Shown here: positions 36,272 to 42,214 of the stretch, one piece after another
How the letters are laid out: the number at the start of each line of letters is the position of its first letter
Numbering within the stretch: position 1 is the stretch's first letter
Source of the DNA: Chloroflexus aurantiacus J-10-fl
GTDB lineage: Bacteria; Chloroflexota; Chloroflexia; Chloroflexales; Chloroflexaceae
NCBI RefSeq assembly: GCF_000018865.1
Contig: NC_010175.1
Coordinates: 1,302,001 to 1,366,000, forward strand
Direction: 5' to 3'
DNA: 64,000 bases
Notes under the pieces: model-generated
What the model saw: the letters and a program-made list of their open reading frames with translations, nothing else
What the model was told of the DNA's origin: nothing
The model's database searches: none
Position numbers and translations under genes: made by a program

Positions 36272-36571
36272 ACCCTTTCCTTCCTGAACAAATGATCAAC
36301 ACGACATAAAGTCCTTGACGAGCAAGAAACACCTTGCTATAATACCTTCACTTGAAAGATTCCTCGTATTGCTTCCCTGAGCACGCAAAGCTGTCCCATA
36401 CGGCGTGCGCGCTCACTGGCACACGGTAACACCACCGTTTACTGGCCAGTCCGTACCCTGCACGTTGGCATCCCGGCTTTGGTTATGCATCACCAACATC
36501 GTGATGCCCGCTGCAACGCATCAAACACTCCGTCGGATCGTCGGCGGGGTCATCCCTCAGCAGGAGGTTGT
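36272..36571. other. divergent gap and long leader of prkA
   Basis: Contains the prkA promoter at 36315-36343 and a leader of about 220 bases before the ribosome site AGGAGG. An in-frame extension from 36479 exists, but lacks a ribosome site. No known riboswitch is recognised in the leader. Confidence 0.5.
36315..36343 (+). promoter_or_regulatory. consensus sigma-70 promoter of prkA
   Basis: TTGACG (36315-36320), 17-base spacer, perfect TATAAT (36338-36343). The closest to consensus in the window; it predicts a transcript start near 36350. Confidence 0.8.
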
Positions 36572-38653
<2,082 letters not shown>

Positions 38654-38698
38654 TAGGCGTCGGTGATACCACGTTCGCTATGCAACCAATAACCGGCA

Positions 38699-38749: not shown

Positions 38750-39865
38750 ATGTCGATGTCAATGAAACGCGCAGAACGCGATCTCAGTCGCTTCCGTGAG
38801 ATTGTGCGTGGTCGGATTAAAAAAGACCTGCGCAAATATATGTCTCAGGGTGAGTTGATCGGTCGGCAGGGGAAACGCTTTGTCAGTATCCCTATGCCGC
38901 AGATTGATATTCCGCAGTTCCGCTACGGGGCCAAGCAGGCCGGTGGCGTTGGTCAGGGTGAAGGAAATGTCGGTGATCCAATCGCCCAGGGTGATGGTCA
39001 GCCCGGTGCAGGCCAGGCCGGTGCCGAACCCGGCCAGCATATCCTGGAGGTTGATGTCTCGATTGAAGAGCTGGCTCAGATTCTGGGTGAAGAGTTACAA
39101 CTGCCCAATATTCAGCCCAAAGGCAAGAAGAACCTGATCAGCGAGAAGGATAAGTACAGCGGTATCCGCCGTACCGGGCCTAATTCGCTGCGCCACTTCA
39201 AGCGCACCTATCGCGAGGCACTCCGTCGCCAGATCGCCTCTGGCGAGTACGATATTCACAATCCGGTGGTGGTGCCTATTCCCGACGATATGCGTTACCG
39301 CTCGTGGAAAGAGACCCTGATGCCCGAAAGTAACGCCGTCATTATTTATATGATGGACGTTTCAGGGTCGATGGGTACCGAACAAAAAGAGCTGGTACGC
39401 ATGACCGCCTTCTGGATCGAGACCTGGCTGCGTTCACAGTATAAATCCATCGAAATTCGCTATATCGTCCACGATGCAGCCGCCAAAGAGGTTGATCAGC
39501 AGACCTTCTACCACATTCGTGAAGGTGGCGGGACCAAAATCTCGTCGGCCTACAAGCTCTGTAATCGCCTGATCGACGAGCGTTATCCGGCGACTGAGTG
39601 GAACATCTACCCGTTCCACTTCTCTGATGGCGACAACTGGGGCGGTGGTGATACCCGCGAATGTGTTGAACTGCTCAAGCGCGAGCTACTGCCGAAAGTT
39701 AATCTCTTCTGCTACGGCCAGGTGCGTTCGTTGTACGGATCAGGGCGCTTCGCCCACGATCTGGAAGAGTACCTCCGTGGTGATGATCGAGTAGTGATTG
39801 CCGAAATTGCCGACCGTGACGATATCTATGATGCAATTCGCGCCTTCCTCGGCAAAGGGCGCTGA
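38750..39865 (+). CDS. yeaH: DUF444 / YeaH-YhbH family vWA protein
   Basis: A 371-residue protein of the YeaH/YhbH family, which works with PrkA and SpoVR in stress survival; biochemical role unknown. A charged N-terminus ([22 protein letters not shown]), a Gly/Gln/Ala-rich loop (about 65-95), and a von Willebrand factor A domain (about 195-360) with the MIDAS metal site [19 protein letters not shown] is also strongly conserved in the family. ATG 38750 follows GGATGGGGGG. It ends directly before spoVR. Confidence 0.92.
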
Positions 39866-39889
39866 TTGCGTTACCCCTATGGTGTGTGT

Positions 39890-42214
39890 ATGAAGAGTAC
39901 CCGCCTTCCCGCTCATCTCGAACAGGCGCGTCAGGAGATCGAGCAAATTGCCCGTGAATACGGCCTCGATTTCTTTCCCATTATTTACGAAGTGCTCGAT
40001 TACCGAACGCTCTATGAGACGGCGGCGTTCGGCGGATTTCCGACGCGCTATCCACACTGGCGCTTCGGCATGGAGTACGATCAGTTGCTGAAAGGGCATG
40101 TCTGGGCCGGGAGCACCATTTACGAGATGGTGATTAACAACAACCCGGCGTATGCCTATCTGCTCGAAGGAAATGAAGACGTCACCCAAAAGATGGTGAT
40201 GGCGCACGTTACCGGGCACGTTGATTTCTTCAAGAATAATATGTGGTTTGCCCATACCAATCGCAAGATGCTCGATACAATGGCAAACCACGCCGCCCGG
40301 ATTCAGCGGATTATTGACCGCATTGGTTATGATCCGGTAGAAGAATTCATCGACACCTGTCTGTCGTTAGAGAACCTGATCGACTACCATGCCCCCTACA
40401 TCCGTCGCCCGGAAGCCGTCACCCCGCGCCCTATCGTGAACGAGGAAGAACCGCCGGTGGTGGAGGGCTTGCCGGTCGAGCGCGAGTACATGCGAGATTA
40501 TATCAACCCGCCTGAATTCCTCGAAGCCCAGCGCCGTAAGCTTGAAGAGGAGCGCGCCCGCCAGCGGCGGTTTCCTGAAAACCCGCAGCGCGATGTGTTG
40601 CTCTTCCTGATGAATTTTGCCCCGCTGGAAAGCTGGCAGCATACCGTGCTCGAAATTATTCGCGATGAAGCCTACTACTTCGCGCCGCAAGGGATGACCA
40701 AAATCCTCAACGAAGGTTGGGCATGTCTGCACGGCGACAGCCTGATCGTGACCGATCACGGGCTGGTGCCGATGCGCGAGGTCGTGAATCATCGTCAGCG
40801 CCTCCAGGTGAGCGATGGCGAACGCCAGCAAACGGTGTACGACTGGAACCGCTTTGCCGATTACCCGACGGTGACCATGCGTACCCGCGCCGGTTTTACC
40901 CTGACCGGTTCACACAACCATCGGATTATGCTGGCCGATGGTACCTGGCGCCGGCTCGACGAGCTGCAGATCGGTGACCGGGTGCGCATTGCCGGCGGTA
41001 CCGAACTGTGGGCAACCGAACCGGCACTACTCCGCTGCCGCCGGCCATTACCACGGGTTCTGGTAACGGCTGGAGCACCTGCTGCCACCACGTCGTCGCC
41101 ACACCGTCGTGGGTACCGCAGGGCAGCGGCTGTGGTCGTCGATGAAAAGCTGGCAGCGGCAATCGGTCGGCGCTGCGTCACGCACGCCGATCAGCAGGCA
41201 TTAGACGCCATTCGACGCTCGCCACGTCCGCAAGTCGTTGCGTTCCTCCGCGCCTTCTGCCAGGGTGCCGGACAGTCCGTAGCGAGTGGTCTCACGCTCA
41301 CCTGCGCGGATGCTGATCTGGCAACTACGGTGCAGTTGCTGCTGACCAATCTGGGTGTGCTGGCCCACCGCACCGACACCACAGTACGCATTGACAATGG
41401 TGATGATCTGGAACGCGCCTATACGACCCTGGCGACACCTACAGGTTGGACAGATGAGGTCGTCGCGCTTGAACACGGCACTGCCGATGTCTACGACATC
41501 TCGGTGACGGCAACGCATCGCTATGCTGCGCAGGGCTTTATCAACCACAATAGCTACTGGCACAGCACCATCATGACCCAGCGGGTTGCCTCGGCAGCCG
41601 AGATTGTCTCCTTCGCCGACCTGCATTCAGGCGTCGTTGCCACCGGCGGCGGTCGCCTGAACCCTTACAAGCTGGGGCTGGAACTTCTGCGCGATATTGA
41701 GGATCGCTGGAACAAGGGCAAATTCGGCAAGGAGTACGAAGAGTGCGACGACATTGCGCTCAAGCGATCCTGGGACAAACAACTCGGTCTGGGCCGCCAA
41801 AAGATCTTTGAAGTGCGCCGTCTCTACAATGACGTCACCTTCATCGATGAATTCCTCACCCCGGAATTCGTGATGGAGCAGAAGCTCTTTACCTTCCGCT
41901 ACAACCGCGATACCGATCTCTACGAAATTGCCTCGCGTGAATTTAAGGAGATCAAAGAGAAGCTGCTCTTCCGGCTCACCAATTTTGGCCAGCCAGTGAT
42001 CTTTGTCGAAGACGGCAACTACGGCAATCGCGGCGAACTCTATCTGCGTCATCGTCATGAAGGCGTTGATCTCAAGATGGATTATGCCCGCGAGACGATG
42101 CGCAACCTGTACAAGATTTGGACGCGCCCCGTCCATCTGGAGACGGTGATTGAAGACAAGCGCCGCCTGCTGTCGTTCGATGGTCGTGATTTTAGCGAAC
42201 GCCGACTGGATTAG
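39890..42214 (+). CDS. spoVR: SpoVR family protein interrupted by an intein
   Basis: SpoVR/YcgB proteins are linked to sporulation cortex formation in Bacillus and to stress in other bacteria. The 774-residue precursor is much longer than the usual 470-510. Residues 279-554 are an intein; removing them leaves 498 residues. The exteins show [25 protein letters not shown] and, once joined, NEGWA plus SYWHSTI, which is the family's most conserved motif. The start is uncertain: ATG 39890 has no clear ribosome site, while TTG 39866 directly follows the DUF444 stop with AAAGGG nearby. Active SpoVR should need splicing. Confidence 0.92.
40724..41551 (+). other. intein within SpoVR (Cys1 ... His-Asn, Ser+1)
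   Basis: A 276-residue in-frame insert between GWA and SYWHS. Block [14 protein letters not shown] with Cys1. Block [12 protein letters not shown] with Thr61 and His64. Block [13 protein letters not shown]. Block G: GFINHN ending in His275-Asn276, followed by extein Ser. All catalytic positions for standard class 1 splicing are present. The middle (about 137-236) resembles a LAGLIDADG endonuclease but lacks its acidic residue. Codon use looks like the host gene, so the insertion is probably not very recent. Confidence 0.93.

Follow-up and report, generated by a model that had tools for sequence, protein, structure and literature searches.

A mini-intein with a decayed homing endonuclease at a conserved site of SpoVR in Chloroflexus aurantiacus

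Inteins in general favour conserved sites of their host proteins (PMC2814812). In the window, which here means the whole stretch of 64,000 nucleotides that was analysed from Chloroflexus aurantiacus J-10-fl (contig NC_010175.1), the single open reading frame of a spoVR gene carries an extra in-frame segment inside such a site, and an earlier note on this DNA had taken the segment for an intein through which SpoVR activity might be coupled to redox state or temperature. We were interested in establishing whether this segment is an intein, whether it has kept the features needed for splicing and for homing, and how it has been maintained in the genus.

All the features of the window described below lie on the forward strand. 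The gene order is prkA (36479..38656; AAA_PrkA and PrkA C-terminal domain, Pfam E 2e-95 and 2.9e-92), a gene for a DUF444 (YeaH-type) protein (38750..39865; Pfam E 1.4e-93), which abuts the spoVR reading frame, and then spoVR. Elsewhere the PrkA-DUF444-SpoVR module is linked to stress and starvation. SpoVR is not known to handle DNA, nor, to our knowledge, has a biochemistry been established for it. In the papers searched, SpoVR and PrkA are named in stress and sporulation contexts.

The intein and its site in SpoVR

The spoVR reading frame (39866..42214) has 782 codons counted from a TTG at 39866, the ATG at 39890 being the more likely start, and it matches the Pfam families SpoVR (E 5.4e-123) and SpoVR_C (E 3.1e-10). 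Its N-extein (39890..40723) ends in TKILNEGWA, and its C-extein runs from 41552 to the stop at 42214. Between them lies an insert of 276 residues (40724..41551), from the TGT codon of Cys1, starting at 40724, to the AAT codon of Asn276, ending at 41551, followed by the AGC codon of Ser+1 (41552-41554). The earlier note had placed the insert at exactly these positions, with the frame open throughout, and its boundaries between GWA and SYWHS proved right to the residue, since intein-free relatives read NEGWA-SYWHS without a gap. Taking the insert out restores a normal SpoVR: the protein is uninterrupted at this point in 13 Chloroflexales and 29 Planctomycetota sequences.

The search with intein models that the note had proposed gave matches with all three: Pfam Intein_splicing (E 2.3e-8, 34.4 bits, slightly below its cut-off of 35.8), TIGR01443 (18.0 bits, above its cut-off of 15.6, and 23.6 bits in the genome search) and TIGR01445 (23.9 bits, slightly below its cut-off of 24.5). 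The AlphaFold model, for which an alignment of 36 inteins was used as input, has a Hint fold with a mean pLDDT of 91, and Foldseek with this model retrieved almost exclusively inteins, those of VMA, DnaB, RecA and GyrA at the top, from 7.7e-13. The note had named two outcomes that would speak against an intein, the same segment in the SpoVR of all species with no splice product, and a search that yields no Hint-domain hit; many relatives turned out to lack the segment, and the Hint models match it. Thus the identity as an intein, the placement in a conserved site and a host that does not handle DNA are supported. The genome holds one spoVR gene and one detectable intein, and the nearest named relatives are found in Chloroflexus islandicus and in Chloroflexus MAG contigs.

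The note had further called the interrupted sequence the most conserved motif of SpoVR. Among 51 SpoVR sequences, mostly intein-free, GWASYWHS ranks 7 of 491 eight-residue windows, so that it belongs to the most conserved stretches, but RYPHWRFG is more conserved. Likewise, SpoVR is an unusual host in that it is not a DNA-handling protein, yet it is a recurrent one, at one site and in several phyla. The recurrence of an intein at one residue marks NEGWA / SYWH as functionally critical; a sequence search with the N-extein as query found no solved SpoVR structure. Finally, in a planctomycete, a Fimbriiglobus MAG, a gene that also bears an intein at the NEGWA site has a second SpoVR intein (L202:2307-3494), of 396 aa and of the LAGLIDADG kind, which splits AHVYGH / CDFFKNN and has no significant similarity to the window intein.

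Splicing residues kept, endonuclease residues lost

The splicing blocks of the insert could all be located. Block A (40724..40765) begins with the nucleophile Cys1, which all 31 aligned inteins with a complete N-terminus share. Block B (40892..40933) contains His66, block F (41486..41533) contains Asp258 and His265, and block G (GFINHN) with Ser+1 occupies 41534..41554, where TIGR01443 scores above its cut-off. In the alignment of 32 inteins, His66, Asp258, His265, His275 and Asn276 are invariant. The features of class 1 inteins, Cys1, Ser+1, block F and the C-terminal His-Asn, are thus seen in this copy, and Cys1, the terminal His-Asn and Ser+1 are as the earlier note had read them. Its block B "Thr/His" was right for the histidine only, since residue 63, at the usual Thr position, is a Ser: the block reads S63-x-x-H66 against the class 1 TxxH, with Ser in 31 of the 32 sequences. 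This family-wide Ser and the Intein_splicing score slightly below the curated cut-off are points that we count against the explanation we prefer.

Full-length relatives at the same site have about 400 residues (399-402) and the LAGLIDADG motifs GYLCGDGH and YDCDGY, and the one that was tested gave a strong LAGLIDADG match (71.7 bits) with two good Pfam stretches. The Chloroflexus inteins have only 274-279 residues. In the window copy, a scar of the first motif lies at 41135..41179, where the GDGH part and the next stretch are deleted with respect to the full-length relatives, and a remnant of the second LAGLIDADG half lies at 41231..41407 (Pfam LAGLIDADG_3, sub-threshold), where YDCDGY has become CQGAGQ, in the context FCQGAGQS, with both Asp gone. 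The same holds for the genus: the Asp column of the first motif is a gap in 7 of 7 Chloroflexus members, this one included, and the Asp residues of the second motif are lost in all seven, with Q, T or A in the first position and A or T in the second. An active LAGLIDADG homing intein is recognised by two such motifs that bear acidic catalytic residues, and this pair is absent here; the length of 276 aa together with the loss of the endonuclease catalytic residues is that of a mini-intein, albeit one that still keeps about 140 residues of linker and endonuclease remnant. Judged by its sequence, the element belongs with the mini-inteins, in a form that retains part of an endonuclease, and not with the active homing inteins; the degenerate endonuclease is a point that the earlier note, right about the intein, had missed.

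Decay of the endonuclease is also seen elsewhere at this site. Two Myxococcota copies (L136, L138) are mini-inteins of 264 aa on a long stem branch, apparently an independent parallel to those of Chloroflexus, and three Chloroploca copies (L033, L089 and L090, in genomes G010, G045 and G044) have 359 aa and a strongly rewritten endonuclease region, apparently an intermediate stage of decay.

Distribution and selection

Of the 158 genomes of the class, searched at a threshold of 1e-5, 37 had a match, part of them in other hosts, e.g. MutS and RNR. Apart from the window, an intein at the SpoVR site was seen in 31 genomes of Chloroflexales (one contig ends early on the N-side), and a clean empty site, NEGWAS(Y/F)WHS or in one case NEGFASYWHS, in 13 others. 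Within Chloroflexus the site is occupied wherever a genus-mate gave a spoVR match; in one more member, whose genome is 82% complete, no match to spoVR was obtained. Named genomes were scanned as well, in a set overlapping the Chloroflexales one, and yielded 44 loci, of which 43 were readable, all with an intein at the NEGWA site of SpoVR, one being readable C-terminally only. Each readable junction has the consensus NEG[WH]A / S[YF]WH, edge-truncated copies being readable at one junction. The 43 loci come from Chloroflexales, Herpetosiphonaceae, Ardenticatenales, Planctomycetota, Myxococcota, Deltaproteobacteria and Bdellovibrio MAGs, and further Chloroflexota groups have an intein after NEGWA as well, while 29 of the 30 loci read in the class sample of Planctomycetia are empty. 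Occurrence of the SpoVR-site intein is sporadic, and on an extein tree of 43 genomes presence and absence switch at least 9 times. Phages, plasmids and viral contigs were searched for a possible vector, but neither a carrier nor a close relative turned up; the matches were one weak viral contig, a large-phage fragment at 33% and a Streptomyces plasmid endonuclease at 27%.

The copies from the Chloroflexota groups f30 and f49 (L152-L164), several of them in genomes of 7-14 Mb, have about 409 aa, and the one tested (L152) has a weak LacI-type HTH match before the endonuclease. The hypervariable linker of the Chloroflexales SpoVR inteins is also HTH-like in appearance.

Within the Chloroflexales, identities to one reference are 0.87-0.90 for the exteins and 0.62-0.74 for the inteins (same-family full-length copies), whereas between phyla the inteins (full-length copies, 0.52-0.59) are about as similar as the exteins (0.50-0.60). 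As the intein evolves faster, yet between phyla has diverged no further than the protein that carries it, these values point to a putative transfer of the intein between phyla. This rests on the distance contrast, branch support in the intein tree being too weak to name donors or to date single transfers.

In Chloroflexus itself, the median dS of the intein (1.39) and of the extein (1.25) agree and all genus-mates with a spoVR match are occupied, so that the intein was most likely inherited vertically. With dS near saturation, which makes the ratios rough, the extein has a dN/dS of 0.018 and the complete intein one of 0.19; by region of the intein it is 0.24 in block A, 0.08 in block B, 0.07 in F/G and 0.21-0.28 in the linker and endonuclease remnant. 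The contrast also holds among the three closest members (dS 0.2-0.4), at 0.02-0.03 for the extein and 0.22-0.29 for the intein. By these estimates, selection in Chloroflexus preserves the predicted splicing and not homing, a pattern that fits an old, vertically inherited, homing-dead and probably splicing-competent mini-intein. Furthermore, two close full-length inteins (L083 in G052 and L084 in G051) are about 96% identical in DNA along most of their length but only 47-63% in codons 1-38 and 54-77% in the linker (codons 96-171), a mosaic that suggests recombination between intein alleles.

Origin, alternatives and known systems

We propose that the element descends from a full-length homing intein of the LAGLIDADG type that targeted spoVR specifically at NEGWA / S(Y/F)WH, that its endonuclease would have decayed in the ancestor of Chloroflexus by deletion and by loss of the catalytic aspartates, and that since then it would have been inherited vertically with its splicing competence kept, because unspliced SpoVR has an interrupted near-invariant GWASYWH. 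Splicing would proceed by an N-S acyl shift at Cys1, transfer to Ser+1, cyclisation of Asn276 assisted by His275, and an O-N shift that yields intact SpoVR. We consider this explanation as a whole, a class 1 intein derived from a full-length homing ancestor, with a decayed endonuclease, vertically inherited and competent to splice, to be about 92% probable; the anatomy, the exact site with its empty counterparts, the family, the decayed endonuclease and the pattern of selection are read from the sequences, while splicing in the cell and the direction of decay are the parts that we infer. Since there is a single spoVR copy, the interrupted motif is near-invariant and the exteins are strongly constrained, it is reasonable to suppose, as the earlier note did, that SpoVR depends on splicing.

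The coupling of splicing to redox state or temperature through Cys1 is unsupported: Cys1 is the nucleophile usual for class 1, and a search for features that depend on a signal gave none. A domesticated intein whose conditional splicing regulates SpoVR after translation remains the best of the alternatives, at roughly one chance in ten. Conditional splicing is established for some other inteins (PMC6195587, PMC5790916, PMC8557812), this one is kept, with its endonuclease no longer working, wherever a genus member gave a spoVR match, and its host gene is clustered with prkA and the DUF444 gene in a stress-linked group. A search for conserved partner cysteines found C151 and C194 in 7 of 7 members, C194 being confined to the genus, although many full-length relatives also have Cys at the column of C151; these two cysteines are the single lead towards such control. 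Retention, however, needs no function, as an intein is seldom lost precisely after the last empty allele has gone; any intein in a needed protein should show purifying selection on its splicing blocks; Cys1, Ala-1 and Ser+1 are all ordinary; and the full-length relatives have the same core, with no feature specific to regulation seen. The more particular version, a dead homing intein domesticated as the switch of SpoVR within the PrkA-DUF444-SpoVR module and tuned to redox by C194 and C151, is more doubtful still. Slightly below it we place an intein that splices very slowly or not at all, with Chloroflexus SpoVR either inactive or working unspliced. Such a defect would agree with the non-canonical Ser of block B and with the rapid drift of the intein; but none of the catalytic residues varies, blocks B, F and G are under constraint, and an extein dN/dS of 0.018 means strong selection on SpoVR in the same genomes. 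An assembly artefact, or a Hint domain of another kind such as a bacterial intein-like (BIL) one, can be dismissed: a Hint fold by itself does not discriminate, but the C-terminal His-Asn, the nucleophilic Ser+1, a conserved insertion site, unlike the non-conserved positions in variable proteins that BILs occupy (PMC2814812), the LAGLIDADG relatives and the same junctions in independent genomes contradict both, as do full, mini and empty alleles at one site.

The splicing-competent, homing-dead mini-intein that we favour is, in mechanism and in kind, well known. It is probably already catalogued, in the InBase entry "Cau SpoVR", which we take to be this Chloroflexus aurantiacus intein. A literature search found no paper pairing SpoVR with an intein, or an intein with "sporulation protein R", and neither the recurrence across phyla at one SpoVR residue nor the homing-dead form throughout the sampled Chloroflexus was found described. 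The recurrence at the same site is more interesting than the individual element: with its full, decayed and empty alleles, a single bacterial order displays the homing cycle at one site, and in Chloroflexus a dead element apparently retained through several speciations makes retention without homing directly testable.

Among known systems, the full-length SpoVR inteins of Oscillochloris, Roseiflexus, Viridilinea and Planctomycetota (L098-L140) share the host, the insertion site and the splicing residues and are 38-49% identical to the window intein in the aligned columns, but they have about 400 aa and most retain intact GDGH and YDCDGY, both missing here. The best sequence relatives with a solved structure are DnaB mini-inteins (NpuDnaB, 4o1r; Ssp DnaB, 1mi8/6frh), which share the Hint core and the chemistry of class 1 but differ in host and site, in the block B Thr (TANH in Ssp DnaB) and in having the endonuclease removed. 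The best structural matches are LAGLIDADG-associated VMA inteins (TliVMA, 7qss/7qsu; PhoVMA, 7qst), which combine the Hint core with an endonuclease-type insertion, and differ by the VMA host, a fuller endonuclease domain and an identity of only 12-15%. Finally, the nearest sequence relatives outside SpoVR in related genomes are MutS inteins of Chloroflexia (L043, L044, L095), which lie in MutS domain V and are distant, at 25-35% identity.
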